Assembly: GCF_029870955.1 (NCBI RefSeq)
Contig: NZ_PGFQ01000001.1
Coordinates: 1,922,001-1,986,000, forward strand
DNA from: Sulfitobacter faviae
GTDB lineage: Bacteria; Pseudomonadota; Alphaproteobacteria; Rhodobacterales; Rhodobacteraceae
Direction of reading: 5' to 3'
DNA length: 64,000 nucleotides
In this document: piece after piece, positions 52,324 to 63,572 of the stretch
How the letters are laid out: every line of letters starts with the position of its first letter
How positions within the stretch are numbered: the first letter of the stretch is position 1
Notes under the pieces: generated by a model
The model's database searches: none
Seen by the model: only the letters and a program-made list of their open reading frames with translations
Told to the model about the DNA's origin: nothing
Position numbers and translations under genes: made by a program

Positions 52324-52545
52324 TCAGCCCATTTGCCGCACCACGGCCATGGTGGCGATGGCGGGTAGGGTCAGTAGCGCGCCGATGGGCCTGAAATCTT
52401 CTTGGAAATGCCGCGCGAAATGCAGCACTGCGGCTAAAAAGGCGGCCAAAGCGGCGAAAATACGCGCGCTTTGGCCTGGAGGGAGACGGAGAGAGAGAAG
52501 AGAGTGGAGCGCGCGGTCAGGAGGTGCCGCGTGCCGTGTTTTCAA
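52324..52545 (-). CDS. Small membrane protein of 73 residues
   Basis: The product has a basic N-terminus and hydrophobic segments around ARIFAALAAFLAAVLHFARH and GALLTLPAIATMAVV. It overlaps the 3' end of the lysozyme-like gene by 29 bp in another frame, and a terminator follows it directly. This suggests that it is co-transcribed and real, but a start inside (for example a later codon) cannot be excluded. Confidence 0.5.
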   Translation of the reverse strand: MKTRHAAPPDRALHSLLSLRLPPGQSARIFAALAAFLAAVLHFARHFQEDFRPIGALLTLPAIATMAVVRQMG

Positions 52546-53245
52546 AGATGCTTTTCATATGGCTGTCGAACTCGTTCCAAGTGATGACAGCCCGGTTGCC
52601 CGCATGGCCGTGATAATAGGACCGGCCCGTCGAAGTGGGCAGCCCGGCCCAGATGCGGGCGAGGTTTTCCATGAAACGATGGCGGCTGATCTTGCCCTTC
52701 ATGAAGGGGGTAAACCCCGCATCTTCGAGCAATAGATCGGCCAGCAGGTCTTGGACCTGCGGAGTGAACCGGTCACTCTTGCTTAGCCCCGCTTCGGCGA
52801 CGAGCGTTTTCAAAGTGTTGGGGATGAACTGGTAGCGCCCGATGGCATGGGGCTGGCCGGGGGTGGCCTTGATCCAGCGATAGATTTCGCCGATGGTCAT
52901 GCTTGTGGGGCGCTTGGGCGGCTTGACCCGCGCCCCATGTTGCACCGCGTCATAGCCTTTCGCGCCCGCCTCTGCCGAGGCGATGACATGACGCACCGCC
53001 GCCGATGGGCCACCGCGCGGGGGCAGGGTCAGTTTGCGGGGGGCCTGAGCATGTTTGACAGGCGTCTGGATCATGGCCCGGTTAAGGTGGATCCGCGCAT
53101 CCGAGGCGGAGGGCGACAGGGCGAAGTTCAGGCCGGTGACGGCGATCTTGCGGCTGTCGAAACGGGCGAAATCATTTGCATTTGCCGCGCCGGAGAGGGT
53201 GGCGGCGATCAGGCAAAAGGCAGTGCTGGCAGCGAGCTTTTTCAT
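52517..53245 (-). CDS. Secreted lysozyme-like (muramidase) protein
   Basis: The 242-residue product has a signal peptide (MKKLAASTAFCLIAATLSGA, cut near ANA). A low-complexity linker to residue 80 precedes a lysozyme-like domain. This starts VRHVIASAEAGAKGYDAVQH, where the Glu of SAEAG is the likely catalytic acid, and includes GQPHAIGRYQFIPNTLKTLV and FMENLARIWAGLPTSTGRSY. It should cut peptidoglycan in the periplasm or outside the cell. A CTATCCTTTCG motif lies 94 bp upstream of the start, shared with the envelope locus. Confidence 0.82.
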   Translation of the reverse strand: MKKLAASTAFCLIAATLSGAANANDFARFDSRKIAVTGLNFALSPSASDARIHLNRAMIQTPVKHAQAPRKLTLPPRGGPSAAVRHVIASAEAGAKGYDAVQHGARVKPPKRPTSMTIGEIYRWIKATPGQPHAIGRYQFIPNTLKTLVAEAGLSKSDRFTPQVQDLLADLLLEDAGFTPFMKGKISRHRFMENLARIWAGLPTSTGRSYYHGHAGNRAVITWNEFDSHMKSIFENTARGTS

Positions 53246-53338
53246 CGGAGTTTCCCATCGGGCTGGAGGTTTGCATTGTCCCTGATCATGCGCCTTCAAA
53301 ATCGATATTTCATTAATGCGGACAGCTAGTTAGCGTCT

Positions 53339-53470: not shown

Positions 53471-56400
53471 TCAGCTTCCGAGGAACTGGTCGAACTGGGT
53501 CCAGAGTGAGTTGTCCAACAGCAGGTTGAACCGGAAATAGAACCCTTCGTCATAGAGGTTGCTTTGCCCTGCCACCCGGCCACGGGCCTTGTTGTAGCCG
53601 AGCGCCAGCAGGACACCTTCGCGCGGGGTGAAGCCAAATTCGGCGCCGATCCCGTTGGAAGAATTGCCCTCGCTGTCCCACAGATGCGTGGCGTTGAGGC
53701 CGAGTTGGAAACGGTCGTCGCCGAATTCGTAGTTCAGACCGCCTTGGATCAACTGCGTGGTGGTATTGGCCCGCGCGCCGGCATTGGTGCCGATCTTCTG
53801 ATGCTGGCCGGCATATTTGCCGTTGATCCGCAGGTCGGCGTCGATCTCGTAATTCGCGTCGATCGACCACAGATGCGTTTCCGTGCTGGCGTGTTTCTCT
53901 TCCAGCCGGTGCTCGTACCACGCCAGCACATCCAGGCGGGCGTTGTCCTTAGGGCGATAGGCGGCCCCGATGCGGGTGCGCATGCGGCGGGAGTTCTCGC
54001 CCTCGCGGCGGTCAAGCGCGGCACGGCTGCGGGCCAGAACGGTCAGCTCAGGGGTGACATTGCCCGCGATGCCGAAGCTGGCATAATGGGTCTTGCCGCT
54101 CTCTTCCCAAGTGGTTTCCAGCTCGGCATCGCCGACCCAGTCACCATCCGCCGATTCCCAGCTTGTGCCGATGGCAAAGGAGGTGAGCTCCCCGTCATTG
54201 GTCTCAAGGTTGCGCGAATGCTCAAGGTCGGCGCGCAGATTGGTGCTCTCGTTGATGTCCCAATCGACCGACAGGCCCTGAACCATGGTGGTGTCGCTGG
54301 TGCCGCTGGCCTTGGTCATCTCGGTCCGGCCGGTGACCCATTCGTTCATCGTATAGGTGAAGCCATAGGCCGCGCGGGTGACCAGAGCGTCGCTGCCGAA
54401 CTGAAGCTCGATCTCGTTATAGACGCGCCAGCCGTTCTTGGGCTCGTCGTAAAGGCCGAGGGTCAGTTCGGTGGGGGCGTCACCGCTGAGCGGGGCGCGC
54501 AGCTTGGCCTCGATCACGGTGCCGGGGCGGGCCGCTGGGGTCCAATGCGCGCCGAGGATCAGGGCGGTGTCGCTCTCGCTGCCGCTGGCGGTGCGGTCCC
54601 GGCTGTACTCAAGGCCGATCTCGCCGCGCAGGGTCTTGCTCAGATGCCGGGAATAGATCGCATCCACGGTCAGCCGCGTGCTGTCGTTGATCCGGTCGCG
54701 GGTGTATTCCGCGCCGAAGGCGATGTCGCTGCGCCGGTCGATCTCTTCGCCATAGCTCAGACGAACCTGCGTGGTGCCGGGGCGTGCCAGCCCACCCTGA
54801 GCGTAGAAATCGCGGCCCGTGTGGATCGCCTCGAAAGCGAAGTGGCGGGTTTCAGTCTTCAGCTCATAGGACAGGCGCGCAGCGTTGTCCTTGTCGCCCA
54901 TGGCGTTCTCCGACCGGGCCACCTCGGCCTCCCACAGCCCGCCTTGGCGGTCTTCGTGCTGGAGGTAGGCAGAGTGCATCCGCTGGCGGGCCGCGTTGCC
55001 CAAGGGGCGTCGGCATGGACCGCACGGGCGCCGACAGAGGTCCGCTCGGACAGGGCATAGTTCACCTCGCCTCCGTAGAGCCAATAGGCCTCGGCGCCCT
55101 CGGCCTCGACCTCATAGGTCACGCGGATCGACACGGGGTTGCCGTCAAGGTCGAACTGGCGCACCGGGCTGTCGAAAGTGATGGTGTTGCGGAAGAAGTC
55201 GAGCAGATAGTCGGTGCCGCGCAGCAGGGGCGTGGCCGACAGGATATCGCCGCCCTCTTCGTCCCGCACGAGGATCTCCACCCGTTCGGAGCCTTGCACA
55301 TAGCCGCTCAGGTCAAGGTCATAGGGGCCAGAGACACCGCGCCCGCGGATTTCCTGAATCTGCTGCTCCTGCGCCGTCCGGGCGGCGAAGACGGTGACCG
55401 AGACGCGGTCGTTCTCCCAATGGCCCTTGGCGCCGGTGGCGACACGTTGCAGGCCGCCCAGTTTCAGCGCGCTCGCCTCGGGCGCGATGGCAATATCGCC
55501 GTAGAGCACATAGGAACGGCCTTTCTCCACTTTCACGAAGAGGTTGGACGAAGATTGCGCATCGGCCCCGCGTTCGGAATTGTCGCCGTAGACGGGGTAA
55601 TATTCCTCACCCCGGATGTCGCGGAACAGGCTGTCTTCGGTGTCCCGGTCCGAGCTGTAGCGCAGGGTCAGCAGGGCATCGCCACGGATCACCCCTTTGA
55701 GGTAAAGCTCACCCCGGATCCCGGTGGTGGTGTCCTCGAAGGCGCTGATACGGTCTTCTTCGATAACATTGCCCGCATCTCCGCTCAGCGAAACCGCGCC
55801 TTCGATCACACCGATCAGCACACGTTCGTTCAGGTCGGGGGTGAAGGTCACCCGCGCCTCGGCCTCGCCAAAGGAGGAGCGCACGGTGATCAGATCGGGG
55901 CCGGAGGCCTGCGGCGGGATCAGGTTGAAGGTCGCCTCGCCATTGTCGAGATAGGCCTGCACGCCGGGCGCGCTGCTGCGGATGTCGGTCACATCCCAAA
56001 GCGACCGGCGAGCGGCGAGGGTCACGGTGCCCGATGCGGGCACCGGGCGGCCCCCGGCGTCAAGCACGCGTACCACGACCGGCACCACCGAGGCGGGATT
56101 GGCCGAAGCGGTTTCCGGCATCAGGATCTCGATCCGGGCAGGTTTGCCGGGGGCGGTCAGGCGCAGCTCTTTGCGGACGCGTTCGATGCCGAATCCGTCA
56201 CGGCCCACCAGTGTCAGCACATTCTCGCCCGAGGCCAGTTTCACGGCCACATATTCCAGCGCCTGCACATTGTTTTTCGCCAGATTGGTGCGTTCGCCCA
56301 CCCGGTCGCCGCCCAGCTCGCGCCCGTTCACCAAAAGCGACAGCGTGAGATCGGCCTTGCCCTTGATCCGGATGTTCTGCGTGGCGCGGGTGACAGACGT

Positions 56401-59208
56401 GTCTTCGGCAAAGTCGACAAAGCCCGGCGCGCTATCGAGGTTCTGGATCATGCTGTCGAGCGATTGACGCTGGGCCGAGGCACGGGCCGCTTGCGCGACA
56501 GAGGAAGGTTCTTGTCCGGCCTCTTCGCTTTGTGCCGCGATCATGCCGGGGGTCAGCTGGGTGGTGGTGGCGATGCCAGCCTCACCGCGCACGGAGCGGG
56601 TGCTGCTGCGCTGGCCGTCGATCGGCAGATCGGCTGAATTCATGCCGGGGGTCTGACGTTTGCCGGCGAAATGGTCGCGGCGTTTGCCGACTTCCTCAAG
56701 CGCTTCGGGGGTGCATTGGGCCACGGCAAAGTTCTCGGTCCGCAACTCGCCCTTCTTCAGCGGCACGATGCGCGAGCCACCCCGGCGCAGATCGTTGGTG
56801 CGGGTCACCTGCACCGCGGTTCCGGCGGGAAGGGTTTCGGGCTGCACGAGGAAGGCATGTGTCACCGGGCGCATGCCGTTGAGCGAATAGGCGCCATTGA
56901 TATCGGTCACCACAAAGAGCCCTTCCTGGGTCACGATGCGCACACCGGGAATGCCGGGTTCATCCTCAACGCGGTCGCGCAGACCGTTGCCGTTGCAATC
57001 CATGAAGACGGCGCCCAGCACGGTGCCTTGGCGCGCAAAGACACCGCCCGAATTGTCGAGCCGGACCATAGCGCGCGCGGTCTGCGATTGTTGCAGCGTC
57101 CCGGTGCCCGCTTGGCGGCCCGACAGGATGGCGGTGTTCTCGTTGCGGCCTTCGCGGGCGGCGGCAGAGAATTGCATCACATAGGACAGCTCATGGCTCG
57201 ACAGCGGCTCAAGCATGCCCACGTCAAAGCGCAGATCGCCATTGCCGATCTCTTGCGGGTCGTCCAGCGGCTCTCCGTTGAGAGTCACCGTGCCGGGCAC
57301 GAAGTTCACACCATAGGCGGGCCGGTCGAGGATTTCGCCGCCGATCAGCGCTTGGTGCATGTTGTTGGTGAAGCTCAGCGTGTAGGTGACGAATTCACCG
57401 TGACCCACGCGGTCGAGGTCGGCGGCTTTGTCCAGCGCCAGCGGCGTGCCATAATTCGGATCAACCGGGATGTCGGAGACGAACAATGCGCCGCCGGCGT
57501 GACTGAACGCGCGGCCCCAACCGGCATCCATCACCCTGCGGCCCATACCGGCATAGTCCAGACGCGCGGAGGGGAAGATCCATGCGGGCGCGTCCATCAC
57601 GGCATAGCGGTAGTCGCCTTCGGGCATTTCGGAGAAGGTGAAAAAGCCGCGCTGGTCGGTCTGGGTGCGGGCCATTTCGTTGCCCGAACGGGCATCGACA
57701 AGCGCCACCGCCACGCCGTCAATCGGGGCGTTGGTGACGGAGTTGAACAGAAAGTTGCCGGGGTTGATCATCAGATCGTCCTCAAGCACCGCGCTGTCGC
57801 AAGACGCCGTCGCGATGAAGCTATCGCCAAAGTCGGTGGCCATGACCTGATCCCCGGCAACGGCGGGCGACATCTGCGCCATCGGCAGGGCGGGGGTGAG
57901 GAAGACACCGGTGTTGGCCCCGGTCTCGGTCGCGATGATGGTTTCCACATCGCCGGTCAGCATGCTTCGGATGGTCACCGCCGTGCTGTCGACTTCGGTG
58001 CTGATGTTGCAGGCGCCCGAGGTGAGGCGCAGGCGGGTGTCGCTGCCCGGCGTGCCATAGGGCTGGTCCGCGCCGGTCTCAGGGTGTTCAAAGACCAAGG
58101 TGCCGACCGTCTCTGTATCGCGGTCATAGACCACGGTGTTAGAGGCCAAGAGCAGGGTGCTTTCTTGGTTGTTGTAAAAGGCCGAGGCGGTGTTCTGCAC
58201 CTCTACCTTGCCCAAGTCGGCAGGCACGCGCACCGAGAAGCTGGGATCGGTCGCATGGCCGACGGCGTAGTCGCCCTCATGAAAGAAGGCCACCGCATCC
58301 ACGTCATGGGAAAGCCCGGCTGGGGCGACGCTGACGTAGTGGTGGTCGGGCGCGCCGCGCATGTGAACCAGCGCGGTCATGGTGCCCGAATCCTGCACCG
58401 CGTGGAACACGGTGTTCAGCGGGATCGCATCGCGCAGCAAGACACCGGTCCGGGGGTGCCATCGATCACGATCGGCTGGCCTTCGACCTCGGGGTAGCCG
58501 AAGGCGTCCCGCTCGGAATCGTTGCGCAGCCGCAGGGTGTAGGTGATGAGCGCGCCCTCGTCATTCTCGGCGACGACCTGCTCTTTGGAGACTTCGAGCC
58601 CGCCTTCCTCGACCCGCGAGACACCCATAGCGTCTTCGGTCAGGTTTTGGCCATCCTCGGTCACGGCAGATGCGGTCAGCATGCTGGTGAATTGGGTGCT
58701 GACGGGGGTCTCGGCGGAGATGCGGAACTCATAGATCAGTTGCAGCCGCTCGCCCGCGGCGAGCATGAAGGGCGCGGACATGTCGAAAGCGCGGTCTTCG
58801 GTATCGATCAGGCCGTTGCCGTTCAGGTCAGGGAAAAGCGATTGGCGCGACATCATTCTGGCGCTGCCTTGCTCGCTGATACTGACCGATGTGGAAAGCG
58901 GCACGTTGCCGCTGTTGATGACGTCGAAATGGTAGCGGCCAAAGGCACCACGGGTCAGCAGAAGGTCGGAGTAGCCGGTCACTTCCAGCCCGGGAACCGC
59001 GGCGACTTCGGCCCGTACCGGGTTCGAGAAGACGCGTTCCATGATGCCAAGGGAGGTGTTGAAATAGCTGACTTCTGCCACGTTGCGGATGAAAGACCCA
59101 GCGGGGCCGGGGCGGCGGTGGCGGTCTGGGGGAAAGGCTCAGGCCCAGTGCGGAGGCGCTGATCAGGGCCAGAGCCGGGCGGGCTTTAGACATAAGGAAA
59201 CTGCGCAT
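53471..59208 (-). CDS. Giant secreted repeat protein with outer-membrane beta-barrel (four missing bases)
   Basis: Four single-base losses (about 55014, 58452, 59105 and 59130) split a gene of 1,913 codons. After repair the N-terminus is a signal peptide followed by an AGSFIRNVAEVSYFN module like that of the neighbouring DUF11 protein. Next come DUF11-like stretches with calcium-type loops (DLNGNGLIDTED), and SdrD-B-like domains (VFMDCNGNGLRDRVEDEPGI; DQRGFFTFSEMPEGDYRYAV). Near residue 1050 is an Ig-like segment (VPVVVRVLDAGGRPVPASGT). The last 700 residues alternate polar and hydrophobic strands (EEYYPVYGDNSERGADAQSS, SYVLYGDIAIAPEASALKLG) and should form a barrel. SD AGGAG precedes the ATG at 59208. 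It is probably a surface anchor or secretion pore. Confidence 0.85.
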
Positions 59209-59277
59209 CAGCTTGCTCCTGTTGCGATCCCTGGGAAGGGCGTGAAAAATGGGGGAGACGGAAACGGGGGGAGGAGG

Positions 59278-59317
59278 GGGCGCCCCCGGGAGAGCATCGC
59301 TCAGCCCGGGGGCGCCC
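59278..59317 (-). promoter_or_regulatory. Strong hairpin between the DUF11 gene and the giant gene
   Basis: GGGCGCCCCCGGG and CCCGGGGGCGCCC pair perfectly over 13 bp with a 14-nt loop. It lies 10 bp after the upstream stop and has no U-tract. It probably protects the upstream mRNA or lowers expression of the giant gene. Confidence 0.7.
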
Positions 59318-59327
59318 GAGAGGTCGC

Positions 59328-61961
59328 TTAGTCGTCGACCCGCACGGTGAACTCTACCCGGGCGAAGCCGCCGGGAAGGATGCTGCCATGCGTGCTCGAT
59401 ACGTTGGTCGAGGTGACGGTGGCCGTGCTGGTGCCCGGGAACAGGCTTTCAGGGCAGGCGCCGCCACAGTCCGTGATCGCGGTATAGGCCGGGGCCGCGT
59501 CCGTGATGATCACATTGTCCGCCGCAGAGGCACCTGTGTTCTCGGCTTCGACCATGTAGCGGATGCACTGGCCGGGCTCGACATCAAGGCGCGTCTTGGT
59601 GAAGGTGCCCACGGTGCCATCGCAGCTCGCGTCGATGTACTGATACTTGCTCAGTGTGACATCGCCCGAGATGATGACCACGCGGTCTTCGACGGCGTTG
59701 TTGGTCTGGTCGATATCGGTCCCGACACCGTTCAACGTGTTGTTGATGGTGATGGTGCCGACTTCGGACACACCTTGGGTGGCTGTCGACGGCGTCTGCA
59801 CACGGTAGATCAGCGAGATGCTGTCGCCCGGGGCAAGTCCGTTCACACCCGGCGAGACGCCGTCGGTCAGGTCATTGAAGTTGTCGATCACCGGTTCGGA
59901 CGGATCGATCACACCGTTGCCGTTCTGATCCCAGAAGATCGCGCCGGAGAAGTTGGTCAGGCCCGATTGCGTGATCGACGCTTCGGTGATGGCCACGTTC
60001 CCTTCGTTCGAGATGGTGTGGAGGATGTCCACGATACCACCCGGCGAAGCCTGCGCGCTTTGGTCTTCGATGATCTTCACGTCATAGATTTCATTGACCG
60101 TGACTTGGTTGACGATCCGGTCACCTTGACCCGAGACGGAAGAGACGACCGCGACGTCGACCAGCGTGTCACCCGGCAGAGCGCCATCGGCGGGCGTGAT
60201 CACGGCGCGGATGGCCTGCGATGCGCCTGCGGGGATGGTGCCGGTGTTCGACACGATCGATCCGTCGGGCAGTTGGAACTCAACCGTCCAGCCTGCGGGC
60301 AGGGCCTGATCCAGCGACAGGTTGAAGCTGTCCGAGGTGGGGCCGTTGTTTTCGACCAGCATCTCGAAGACAACCGGTGCGCCCGGGTCTGTCGACTGGG
60401 TGACCCATGGGTTGCCACCGTTCGTCGGTGCCGCGCCATCGCCTTCGGAACCGACGACGGCGTTCTCAAGATCGACCGAAGCCGCAAGAACCGCGCCGGT
60501 GAATTCGGCAGTCGACACATCGCTGACGCCGGAGTTGTCCGAGGTCGTTGTGATGACGGCGGTGTAGTTGGTGGTGGCGGTTGGTGCGACATCGGTTGGC
60601 AATGTGGTGATCAAGGTCACCTTGGCGCTGTCACCGATACCCAAGGGACCGACAGAGCCGACCACCGGTGTGATACCGTCGGCGCCCACAAAGCGGAAGG
60701 TGGTGCCAGCCGGGAAGTCGCCATTGGCCACGTCGAGGGTCAGGCTGTCCGGGCTGTTGGAGAGGTTGGTCAGCACGAATTCCTGACGGATTGTGCCGCC
60801 CTGATAGACATCGCCGGATTCCGTGACGACATCGTTGTTGGCCGCGTCATCGTCGGTGGCCGAGGCAATCGCCGGGTTGGCCGTGCCGTTGGAGTTGATC
60901 GCCGTATCAGCAACCGCCACCGCATATTGGTTGTCCACGGTGACAGAGGCGGTGTTCGATGGCGGGAAGGCCACGCCGTCAACGTCCTGGGTCGCCACGT
61001 TGGTAATGATGCCCGCATTGGCGGTATCCGCGATCACGGCACGGAAGGTCACCTCACCCGAGCGGCCAGAACCGACAGAGGAGATCAGGAAGTTGACGTT
61101 CTGCGCGTCGTCATAGTCCCACGCGATGGTTTCGCCAGAGCCGTTTGTCGCGTCGACGACGGTGGAGCCGTTGTCATCGTCCAGCGGTGTGGCAGAGTCA
61201 GACCAGCGGGCCGAGCCGGGCACATAGGTCAGGCGGCCATCGAGCACGTCCTGCACAGAGTAGCTGTTGGCCGCGGCCAGACCGGTGCTGGAGTAGGTCA
61301 GCGTGATCGTTACCGTATCGCCCGCGTCGATGATATTGGGGTTGCCGCCCGAAGCCGGGTCCGCCGTCATCGATTTGACCAACTCGACAATCGCGTCGTT
61401 GGAGATTGTCAGCGTGTCCGTATTGGTGCTCAGCACGGTGCCGTCGAGGGTCGAGGCCGCCGTGACGGTGATCGTGTCGGAACCGGTCGCCGTGGAGGCG
61501 ACGGAGGCTTCGATCACGATGCCGAACTGCTCACCGGGGGCGAGGGTCGGGGTCTCGGTCAGCGGGGTGGCGCTATCGGCCACGCCGTCCATGTTGGCGT
61601 CGGGGTAGAAAACCAGCTGCGAGGTGTCGAGCGTGCCGGTGTCGGTTTCCACTGCCGTCAGCGCAAAGGCATCCGGGCCGTTACCATCGTTGGTGATGAT
61701 GTGCGGCAGGAACGCCTTACCGCCGGGGGCGATGGTTTCGGTGTTGTCAGAGGTCAGGGTGACGCCGGCAACTTGCTGAACGACTGTCTCAACGGTGTTG
61801 GAGGTTACCGTGATCGTGTCGCCCGCGGCATTGGTATAGGTCGCCACGGCTTGGTTGCCGATGACAGAGCCCGCTTCGGGCGCCGCGAAAGCGACAGTGC
61901 CGATCACGGCGGTCAGAGCAACGGCGCTTACGGAGCGCAGGAAGGTTGTTTGGTGTTTCAC
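59328..61961 (-). CDS. Secreted DUF11-repeat protein of 877 residues
   Basis: A signal peptide (MKHQTTFLRSVSAVALTAVI, cut near AFA) is followed by GSVIGNQAVATYTNAAGDTI. Several Ig-like DUF11 modules of about 110-130 residues follow, with repeated NDGNGPDAFAL, SNSPDSLTLDVANGD and NNGPTSDSFNLSLDQAL-type openings. Asp/Asn-rich loops (YPDANMDGVADSATPL, WDQNGNGVIDPSEPVI) look able to bind calcium. It is strongly acidic, with no membrane segment after the signal. The C-terminal module contains cysteines (CDGTVG, CIRYMVEAENTG, CGGACPE). I infer an extracellular fibre or matrix protein exported with the giant barrel protein. Its frame is intact. Confidence 0.87.
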   Translation of the reverse strand: MKHQTTFLRSVSAVALTAVIGTVAFAAPEAGSVIGNQAVATYTNAAGDTITVTSNTVETVVQQVAGVTLTSDNTETIAPGGKAFLPHIITNDGNGPDAFALTAVETDTGTLDTSQLVFYPDANMDGVADSATPLTETPTLAPGEQFGIVIEASVASTATGSDTITVTAASTLDGTVLSTNTDTLTISNDAIVELVKSMTADPASGGNPNIIDAGDTVTITLTYSSTGLAAANSYSVQDVLDGRLTYVPGSARWSDSATPLDDDNGSTVVDATNGSGETIAWDYDDAQNVNFLISSVGSGRSGEVTFRAVIADTANAGIITNVATQDVDGVAFPPSNTASVTVDNQYAVAVADTAINSNGTANPAIASATDDDAANNDVVTESGDVYQGGTIRQEFVLTNLSNSPDSLTLDVANGDFPAGTTFRFVGADGITPVVGSVGPLGIGDSAKVTLITTLPTDVAPTATTNYTAVITTTSDNSGVSDVSTAEFTGAVLAASVDLENAVVGSEGDGAAPTNGGNPWVTQSTDPGAPVVFEMLVENNGPTSDSFNLSLDQALPAGWTVEFQLPDGSIVSNTGTIPAGASQAIRAVITPADGALPGDTLVDVAVVSSVSGQGDRIVNQVTVNEIYDVKIIEDQSAQASPGGIVDILHTISNEGNVAITEASITQSGLTNFSGAIFWDQNGNGVIDPSEPVIDNFNDLTDGVSPGVNGLAPGDSISLIYRVQTPSTATQGVSEVGTITINNTLNGVGTDIDQTNNAVEDRVVIISGDVTLSKYQYIDASCDGTVGTFTKTRLDVEPGQCIRYMVEAENTGASAADNVIITDAAPAYTAITDCGGACPESLFPGTSTATVTSTNVSSTHGSILPGGFARVEFTVRVDD

Positions 61962-62021
61962 GTTAATATTCCCTAGTTCTATAGTAGTTGGAGAGAGAGT
62001 GGAGAGAGAGAGGCGCCGGGA

Positions 62022-62534
62022 TTAGTTCAGGCGCACGCGGTAGCTGTTGAAGGCGGAATCGCCTGCTTCGAGCGGTTCGGAGAGGGTCCAGCGCACGGCG
62101 GCGACAGCCTCTTCAGGGAGCGGCTCTTCGGTCATGTTGCCATCGGCATCGACGACCTTGCGGATGGCGGGAACGGTGGACCATTCCAGCCCTTCCTGTT
62201 CGGGGTCCATCTCGGCCTGGACTTCAAAGACCGCGGCGACAGAGGTCACTTCGGCGCCCAATGTGATAGAGACGCCCTCGGGGACCGGTGCGGCGATGAC
62301 GAGCCCTTCCATGGCGCCGTCGGTCATGTTCTGGTGGCGCAGCTCATAAGAAATGACTTCGCCCGGGCGGACCGTCTCACGCTCAACGAGGACTTCTTCG
62401 CCCTCGGCATTGGTTTCCACCACGCGGAAGGAGAATTCGCTCGTGAGCGCGTCGGCGGCAGCCGCGAAACCCGCGAGCGACAAAGCCGTACTCGTGATGA
62501 GTGTCTTGGACAATTGGGAGATATGGATACGCAT
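62022..62534 (-). CDS. Secreted 170-residue envelope-locus protein
   Basis: A signal peptide (MRIHISQLSKTLITSTALSL, cut near AAA) is followed by one domain of about 140 residues. VERETVRPGEVISYELRHQN resembles the first strands of a DUF11 module, and VRWTLSEPLEAGDSAFNSYR ends the domain. This could be a single-module partner, chaperone or subunit of the two larger proteins downstream. It is the first gene of the line and lies next to the motif cluster at 62685-62733. Confidence 0.82.
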   Translation of the reverse strand: MRIHISQLSKTLITSTALSLAGFAAAADALTSEFSFRVVETNAEGEEVLVERETVRPGEVISYELRHQNMTDGAMEGLVIAAPVPEGVSITLGAEVTSVAAVFEVQAEMDPEQEGLEWSTVPAIRKVVDADGNMTEEPLPEEAVAAVRWTLSEPLEAGDSAFNSYRVRLN

Positions 62535-62684
62535 CTAGTAGTTCCCTTGTTGGCCGGTGAAGAGCCGGCGATTGCAATGAACGGACACGCTCATTGCGTT
62601 GTCCTGTTCTCATCTTCGGGGAACCGGATACCGATATCATCTGAGCGAACGGTTAACTCGCTGAGCCTGTGGTCAGGCGCTTAA

Positions 62685-62733
62685 CCGAAAGGATAGGTGG
62701 CCCTATCAGGTCGCGCCGCGGCCTATCATTTGG
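62685..62733. promoter_or_regulatory. Cluster of three CCTATC motif copies, probable operator
   Basis: CCGAAAGGATAGG (62685-62697, minus-strand copy of the motif), CCTATC (62702-62707) and CCTATCATTTGG (62722-62733). The first two form an inverted pair, GATAGG-TGGC-CCTATC. The cluster lies about 150-200 bp upstream of the 170-residue gene, as for activator sites of a LuxR-type regulator. Confidence 0.6.
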
Positions 62734-62836
62734 CGCGGAAATGGGGCCGGGCGCGGGCTCCGCAGATGGTTAATTTTGCTGGGAAAATGGGGCTTCCGAA
62801 TCTTTGATTCGATGCGGGCCGTCATAGGCCGAACGC

Positions 62837-62860
62837 AAAAACGCCCGCGCGGGGCGGGCG
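62837..62860 (-). terminator. Terminator of the response-regulator gene
   Basis: On the minus strand CGCCCG pairs with CGGGCG across a GC-rich loop and is followed by TTTTTGCG. It is 92 bp from the stop. Confidence 0.7.
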
Positions 62861-62951
62861 ATTATGGTTTACGCTCAGAGGGGAGACGGGGGGCGCTACA
62901 GGGTGCGCGCTGGGCCGATGCCGGGGGTGGTTCAGGGGTGTGAAACGGGCC

Positions 62952-63572
62952 TCAAACGAAGCCCGCATCGCGCGCAATGATCGCCGCATCGGTACGATTC
63001 TTTGCGTCCAGTTTTCGGCAAAGTGTTTTGACATGCAGTTTGATCGTCACTTCCTGCAGATCGAGGTCGCGGGCGATCTCTTTGTTAGACTGCGCGTTCA
63101 TCAATCCGCGCAGCACTTGGCGCTCCCGCTCGGACAGGGATTTCTCGAAATCCGTCTCTTCGGGATTGTCCTTGCCCGACATGAAGGTGACCGGGGCATA
63201 GGTCTCTCCCGCCGCCATGAAACGCACCGCGTTGACCAGTGACTTGGCGGGCAGCGTCTTGGGCAGAAAGCCGATCGCCCCCATTTCGAGCGCCTGTTCG
63301 GCAATGAGCCGAGTGGCGGTGCCGGAAATCAGCCCGACCGGGCGACCCTCATTGATATCAAGAACGGTTTGCAGACCCTGCAAGCCCTTCATGCCGGGCA
63401 TTGTATAATCCAGCAGCACCAGGTCGTAGGGCGGCTCTGATTTGATCTTGTCCAGCGCTCCGGCCAGATCGCTCGCCGCTTCGGTGACGGTGGCCCCATC
63501 CGCATCAAGAAACATGGCGATGGTCTCTCGGACCATGTCGTGATCATCGGCAATTAAAATACGCAAAGACAT
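62952..63572 (-). CDS. NarL/LuxR-type response regulator
   Basis: The 206-residue protein has a receiver domain with acidic pocket DDHD (residues 9-12), phosphate acceptor D55 (LVLLDYTMPGMKG) and Lys in FLPKTLPAKS. Its HTH domain runs from about residue 143 (LSERERQVLRGLMNAQSNKE) to the end, with recognition helix EVTIKLHVKTLCRKL. SD AGGAGA supports the ATG at 63572. It should bind paired sites as a dimer. It lies between two regions that share the CTATC motif, so it is the best candidate to control them. The cognate kinase is not in view and may lie past the right edge. Confidence 0.93.
   Translation of the reverse strand: MSLRILIADDHDMVRETIAMFLDADGATVTEAASDLAGALDKIKSEPPYDLVLLDYTMPGMKGLQGLQTVLDINEGRPVGLISGTATRLIAEQALEMGAIGFLPKTLPAKSLVNAVRFMAAGETYAPVTFMSGKDNPEETDFEKSLSERERQVLRGLMNAQSNKEIARDLDLQEVTIKLHVKTLCRKLDAKNRTDAAIIARDAGFV

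Follow-up and report, generated by a model that had tools for sequence, protein, structure and literature searches.

How large adhesive proteins cross the outer membrane of Proteobacteria, and then stay on it, is an open question outside the known systems. A close precedent is type 9 secretion (the type 9 secretion system, T9SS), which is a system of Bacteroidota. It uses a 36-strand barrel, and SprA receives its cargo (PMC10994853). A second precedent comes from the DUF11 giants, whose filaments resemble grappling hooks. One of these is GhlA of Litorilinea, described following GhpA of Aureispira; it is a single protein of 6,596 residues that has 49 DUF11 domains and is reported to lack a signal peptide (PMC13319060). 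DUF11 is also known as a stalk domain (PMC9210967). Here we turn to 64,000 nucleotides of DNA from Sulfitobacter faviae (the whole stretch analysed, which we call the window) and to three of its genes, A, B and C. C codes for a giant protein with a predicted barrel, and B ends in a C-terminal domain (CTD) that also closes variable proteins, called D, encoded elsewhere. We think it probable that A, B and C together make up the core of an unrecognised outer-membrane surface-display system, one of export and docking.

The likeness to T9SS lies in the cargo, which has a conserved C-terminal beta-sandwich there, as B and D have here, and scattered genes, as D has here, and in the barrel, with 36 strands there against 32-36 predicted strands in C. 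The differences begin with the hosts, which here are mostly Proteobacteria, with Verrucomicrobiota and Acidobacteriota. The T9SS CTD family is absent from B and from four D proteins (NCBIfam, E 0.1), which hold DUF11-type repeats and other families instead; the SprA family has no match in the pieces of C (Pfam and NCBIfam, E 0.1); and TIGR04189 matched nothing in the own genome, and nothing in any control genome either. No T9SS motor or shuttle genes turned up, no family-level search having been aimed at them. Our best reading is of a system that may work like type 9 secretion, with a C-terminal tag and a giant barrel, yet one in which none of the T9SS parts looked for was seen.

Other known systems were compared as well. 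For type V, we found neither the autotransporter barrel family, unmatched in the C pieces, nor an N-terminal intimin-type barrel. No usher or periplasmic chaperone family was found in A, B or the C pieces, and the DUF560 barrel of type 11 secretion (T11SS) was unmatched in the C pieces (both at E 0.1); a lead towards T11SS through PMC12282271 was dropped, the apparent DUF11 mentions in the available part of that paper being mostly DUF1194. B and the intact D copies examined end 0-2 residues after the CTD and carry no LPXTG-type sorting signal. By these features the system is neither chaperone-usher, type V, T11SS nor sortase, and the T9SS cargo domain was not encountered. SdrD and other MSCRAMM proteins, along with Gram-positive sortase pilins, have SdrD_B and pilin-like immunoglobulin-like (Ig-like) domains in common with it, and differ in that an outer-membrane barrel is predicted here and sortase anchoring is lacking. 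Both domains by which DUF11/SdrD_B fibrillar adhesins are recognised exceed their curated cut-offs, SdrD_B in C and DUF11 in B. GhlA shares surface filaments of strung DUF11 domains; the consulted part of its account (PMC13319060) mentions no A-B-C set or C-terminal CTD. The barrel/S-layer protein SlpA of Deinococcus shows 7% identity and a high root-mean-square deviation (rmsd), a generic barrel likeness only. We met no description of the A-B-C set in the open-licence PubMed Central literature (titles and abstract starts, among the matches listed). It is an unnamed yet widespread set that seems to place large adhesive proteins on the cell surface, via or onto a giant barrel.

The trio and the shared tail domain

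Relatives of C gave 269 matches, from which 80 loci were kept and searched with profiles of A, B and C (genomes and loci carry our own G and L numbers where they must be told apart). The three genes are adjacent and on the same strand in 73 of the 75 loci with at least 3.5 kilobases upstream of C, a count that drops the five with less (L071, L091, L101, L140 and L141); B is present in all 75, and in the two exceptions, L100 and L114, an A-like frame lies past C. As called across loci, A has about 150-320 residues, B 620-960 and C 900-2,260. The hosts are Rhodobacterales, Neomegalonema, Rhizobiales, Acinetobacter, Alkanindiges, Psychrobacter, Burkholderiales, Opitutaceae and Acidobacteria, several of the loci being metagenome-assembled. 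Within the family, sampled at nearly one genome per genus, B and C share the same 7 of 198 genomes, an agreement with a chance of 5e-13 if genomes are assumed independent; they also share the same 10 of 59 relatives, plus the own genome. Conservation across the family rules out chance or artefact, and the sequences lend good support to A-B-C as an old co-inherited unit. Many of the loci L116-L144 (mostly Acinetobacter) also have B-like paralogues and a D gene flanking the trio, and in the two examined, L116 and L143, a gene of unknown family and 206-217 residues follows C.

A preliminary description of the window had set out three aligned genes with a response regulator (a 170-residue A, an 877-residue DUF11-type B, and C) and had read them as one unit, and in this it was right. 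It had also taken the system to consist of three proteins. The trio is real; what was missed is that B has its CTD in common with a variable set of D proteins, the putative cargo.

A profile made from B only, using the C-terminal 112 residues of 75 B proteins, matched at 1e-3 57 open reading frames besides A, B and C in the 80 loci. All but three of these matches (54 of 57) stop within 5 residues of the C-terminus, 19 of them in B-like paralogues, mostly of Acinetobacter, and 35 in others. D proteins reach 2,121 residues, some being cut by locus ends. When 15 representative CTD-bearing frames were compared by BLASTP, those of distant lineages had in common chiefly about 250-530 residues at the C-terminus, and those of close lineages more; the variable parts carry domains as different as GEVED, SpaA_4, DUF7933, beta-helix and SdrD_B. 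Over its last 233 columns the D module aligns with the tail of B (99.7%, E 1e-26), and the alignment reaches the very end of both. At least 86 database proteins are relatives of one D module (7,993 best candidates scored), and 85 of the 86 have the CTD at the C-terminus. A sequence search of the PDB with the CTD gave no close relative (best E 0.0033).

A broader CTD profile was built from 25 of 26 listed tails (L121 excluded) and the window, and holds both B and D members. The end positions of 30 of 35 genus matches and 20 of 29 family matches were checked, some shared, of which 41 reach 70 bits; the 40 intact strong copies (13 in B, 27 in others) end 0-2 residues before the stop codon, leaving out L161, which has a stop inside the CTD. 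In many genomes, for example G009, G012, G013, G026 and G030, D genes are far from the trio, the distance often amounting to hundreds of kilobases; in G009 they sit at 1.71 and 1.93 megabases, and B at 0.57. The D tails of the own genome are at 1994215-1994550 and 102907-103239 of contig C1.

Strong CTDs co-occur with C, and none was found in the tested genomes without C. In the genus, the profile matches 12 of 40 genomes: 11 in which C was known beforehand and G257, in which C was found afterwards. Among the 28 CTD-negative genomes, 25 lack a full-length C match, the count for C excluding G256, G258 and G259. In the family, 14 of 198 genomes match at 1e-6, and the seven that score above 100 bits are the seven B/C genomes. 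A CTD match was present in all 21 of the trio genomes tried.

Predicted structures of C, B and A

AlphaFold2, run on the C-terminal half of C from S. dubius with an alignment of 41 of the 58 C sequences (near-duplicate and partial sequences and further loci being removed), gave a mean predicted local distance difference test score (pLDDT) of 77 and a predicted template modelling score (pTM) of 0.55. The model has two Ig-like domains, a poorly predicted stretch and 32 long strands (490-1030), with about 4 more strands at 357-420; four short strands at 441-477 are not counted. The 36 strands average 12 residues, with a hydropathy alternation of 0.645 against 0.317 +/- 0.036 for shuffles; for the 32 alone the values are 0.667 and 0.316 +/- 0.041, and 0 of 2000 shuffles reach the former. 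We predict that C carries a barrel built of long amphipathic strands, 32 or perhaps 36 in number, in the region of residues 1226-1899, which agrees with the roughly 700 barrel-like C-terminal residues of the preliminary description. The two observations on which that description might have foundered, absence of a barrel and independent occurrence of the genes, were both looked for, and neither overturned it.

Ahead of the barrel, SdrD_B matches C at E 7.5e-13 (49.1 bits; curated cut-off 29.7), DUF11 matches weakly, under its cut-off, and a CTD-like DUF11 domain lies at about 588-682. A PDB sequence search with C returned SdrD, UafA, an OmpA-like chain and a cellulosomal scaffoldin. Specific kinship of the barrel to porins, SlpA, SprA or LptD was considered and set aside, and these matches are taken as generic barrel likeness because the rmsd is mostly at least 10 Å.

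B matches NPCBM_assoc (1.2e-7) and DUF11 (4.3e-6; 27.5 bits against a cut-off of 24.6). It is predicted to be a string of Ig-like domains (pLDDT 85; alignment of 55 of 74 B proteins and the window) with a compact sandwich as its tail, and its residues 190-345 resemble Gram-positive pilin domains. No barrel is predicted in B or D. The related I-x-N-x-A modules that had been noticed in B and C are borne out by a match of B to the N-terminus of C from G030 (E 8.4e-7) and by five invariant residues, I34, N36, A38, A40 and Y42 of B, in 56 aligned B sequences. A has no Pfam match; in hhalign it aligns with the D C-terminal module at 97.1% (A alignment: 33 of 74 A proteins and the window), and by sequence it is a free-standing CTD-type domain. 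Calcium binding through the D-x-N-G-N-G loops and SdrD_B seems plausible.

Proposed export and docking, and the rival readings

How might such parts work together? A, B and D would cross to the periplasm by Sec, as signal-peptide-like starts suggest (by eye, where the start is clear). B and D share a module of about 240 residues at the C-terminus; its final domain, which ends at the stop codon, would be the tag. C would be an outer-membrane barrel of 32-36 strands with Ig-like domains ahead of it, and we take it as the receiver of CTD-tagged proteins because B and D share the tail and have no predicted barrel, C having the predicted barrel that accompanies them. The CTD is most likely recognised by the C machinery, after which the protein would pass through or beside the barrel and remain docked via its C-terminus, its variable N-terminal part facing outward. 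We infer that C exports or anchors B, and that B may be an invariant adaptor or first subunit; A, put forward in the preliminary description as a subunit or chaperone, may guard or seat the CTD. In Rhodobacterales, control probably lies with the LuxR-type regulator and a hybrid kinase, and the lysozyme-like protein may open up space in the wall. If so, sequence data identify a tag for cargo, a candidate giant translocon and the regulator that goes with it; these are conserved across phyla, and the tag allows candidate cargo to be listed in any genome.

Several observations weigh against the display system as we read it. The other seven family genomes with a CTD match score at most 48.8 bits, and two of these weak matches (L182, L183) end 3-4 residues before the stop; four more are internal in long proteins and one ends 17 residues before it. 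Of the three weak-CTD genomes searched for C, G076, with a C-terminal match 3-4 residues before the stop, shows no C at E 1e-5, while G252 and G100 hold distant C relatives. (The open frames of those two run to 1,735 and 1,174 residues; G252:C80, G100:C88 and G076:C141, loci L182-L184 and L195-L198, are perhaps a diverged version of the system.) The CTD of a Psychrobacter trio genome (L145) is weak, at 33.5 bits. D proteins of L083 and L142 share their N-terminal part too (30.7% over 449 residues). The broader CTD profile is circular for B, whose tails it contains, and its D matches also had D members inside, so that only the tail search in 80 loci was B-trained. Genomes within one genus are not independent. 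As to the barrel, Foldseek template modelling (TM) scores against known barrels are about 0.1-0.3, which, with the pTM of 0.55, makes strand number and closure uncertain; the amphipathicity of the first four of the 36 strands is not significant, its value being attained in 257 of 2000 shuffles. Finally, no energy source or inner-membrane partner was noticed, no systematic search having been made.

The rival that survives best is a surface fibre rather than secretion, in which C would be a barrel anchor with an outward Ig stalk, B, A and D would stack through incomplete DUF11 domains by pilus-like strand complementation, and the membrane would be crossed by another route. It shares most of the evidence and differs on whether C transports. 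The CTD does align with ordinary DUF11 and end short of its last strand: against the internal DUF11 copies of D it stops at position 100 of 140, before the last aligned strand, and PF01345 matches reach 98-106 of 114 in five other own-genome copies and 86 in the B tail. Pilin-like domains in B and the CTD-like DUF11 in C point the same way. Scattered D genes and strong CTDs found only alongside C, however, suit a recognised tag at least equally; a barrel is predicted in neither B nor D, and the gene lists beside the trio showed no other conserved exporter, no family-level scan having been made. On balance we hold the fibre to be unlikely, though a rival to be reckoned with.

A bolder version of the display system can be drawn from the same truncated fold. 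Lysine, aspartate and asparagine make isopeptide bonds in related pilin domains. Of 160 C-terminal CTDs, 159 have the aspartate, and all 143 in which the lysine position is present have the lysine. In the examined pieces of the giants of a second, split architecture (below), 232 DUF11 copies were counted; the lysine is invariant there (206 of 206), 215 of the 232 copies have the aspartate, and the last strand has its asparagine in 87 of 144. One might imagine a new numbered secretion or assembly system, spanning at least three phyla, whose tag would be an isopeptide-type DUF11 domain left incomplete by design, with the conserved lysine and aspartate retained and the last, often asparagine-bearing strand missing; A, C or another subunit would supply the strand after export, and capture would be by strand complementation, perhaps covalent. 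We regard this as speculative and rather improbable; if true, it would mean sortase-free, pilus-like surface fibres built on a giant barrel.

That C is instead a self-exporting giant autotransporter-like adhesin, with B and D as separate adhesins whose DUF11 tail reflects common ancestry, is suggested by the adhesin-type N-terminal half and C-terminal barrel in a single chain. Type Va barrels have 12 strands, far from 32-36, the C pieces match no autotransporter barrel family, and the exclusive co-occurrence of CTD, B and C would be unexpected; we consider this reading quite doubtful.

The gene for C is here three overlapping frame-shifted open reading frames and a further one holding the signal-peptide start. 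It is uninterrupted in all 10 of the 59 relatives searched that possess it (open frame 1,917-2,015 residues; from the first start codon, 1,912-1,917 in seven and 1,943-2,000 in three), and the earlier figure of about 1,913 residues fits these intact relatives. Piece 2 is 89% identical to its counterpart in G003. The hybrid kinase, which lies past the edge of the window, is also split, G003 and G009 having it in one piece, and the own-genome D tails sit in frames of 217 and 340 residues, against 1,722 and about 1,750 in relatives. Four long genes, in two regions, are thus interrupted here and open in relatives, which makes us suspect indel errors in this assembly rather than decay; the open frames in relatives speak against a dead gene C. 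A decaying locus in this strain, with no display, would account for the splitting of C, the kinase and both D genes, and is very improbable given that resemblance to assembly indels and an intact A, regulator and B (94% identical in G030); even if true, it would leave the family-wide finding untouched. In Phaeobacter sp. J2-8 (L104:10001-15786), C also lies in two frames, of 896 and 1,028 residues.

Gene layout, regulation and a second architecture

On the minus strand of the window the genes read, in order, response regulator, A, B, the C pieces and the lysozyme-like protein, and the gene set reaches past the window to the D proteins and, in Rhodobacterales, to the hybrid histidine kinase.

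Table 1. Features of the locus (window positions, except for the kinase, which lies beyond the window).
Feature	Coordinates	Strand	Description
LuxR-type response regulator	62952-63572	minus	206 residues, start as in relatives; upstream of A; inside open reading frame 62952-63773
Gene A	62022-62534	minus	170 residues; signal-peptide-like start (by eye); single DUF11/CTD-like Ig domain
Gene B	59328-61961	minus	877 residues, secreted-type, Ig-like domain string
CTD of B	59331-59666	minus	Flush with stop codon; same domain in D proteins elsewhere in genome
Gene C 5' end	58828-59208	minus	Open reading frame with signal-peptide-like start; other frame than following piece
Gene C piece 1	58416-59081	minus	N-terminal I-x-N-x-A module
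Gene C piece 2	54859-58440	minus	DUF11/SdrD_B domains, invasin-like Ig domains, predicted barrel start
Gene C piece 3	53471-55084	minus	C-terminal half with predicted barrel
Lysozyme-like secreted protein	52517-53299	minus	Downstream of C; about 240 residues in relatives; "lysozyme-like" by eye
Hybrid histidine kinase	G000:C1:1986310-1988909 (L001:1311-3916)		PAS, HisKA, receiver, Hpt in G026

The regulator had been called dedicated, and it does track the trio: among 23 genus genomes scanned, it has a relative of at least 80% identity in 6 of 6 trio genomes and of at most 59% in the others. The hybrid kinase behaves in the same way (at least 54% in the same six, at most 38% in the others). In G012 and G013 neither is linked to the trio, so the tie there is one of co-inheritance; in G005 the regulator lies outside the contig bearing A. 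Over the 80 loci, the regulator occurs in 27 and the kinase in 22, none outside Alphaproteobacteria, which makes the pair a lineage-specific addition. The regulator as a universal component was rejected, with no match above 250 bits in loci outside that class. A small protein with an Oxidored_molyb match adjoins the kinase.

The lysozyme-like protein has no Pfam or PDB match. Its relatives occur in 26 of 80 loci, mostly directly after C; a few lie next to D or at another position within the locus.

Some genomes hold a second, split architecture, in which a giant DUF11 protein is directly followed by a barrel-like protein of about 1,150-1,190 residues, distantly related to C (L054-L064 in G031, G016, G004, G015, G008 and G035:C2, and L058 in G010). 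The giants have open frames of 4,558-6,526 residues, the G010 copy being cut by a contig end, and no strong CTD was found in these genomes except the trio genome G035. Such pairs (G016, G008 and others; a barrel-like partner of about 1,150 residues) look closer to GhlA and are possibly grappling-hook-like. A lysozyme-like gene (L058:6203-6886) also follows the split barrel-like gene of G010, as it does C in many Rhodobacterales, and this ties the split and trio architectures together.
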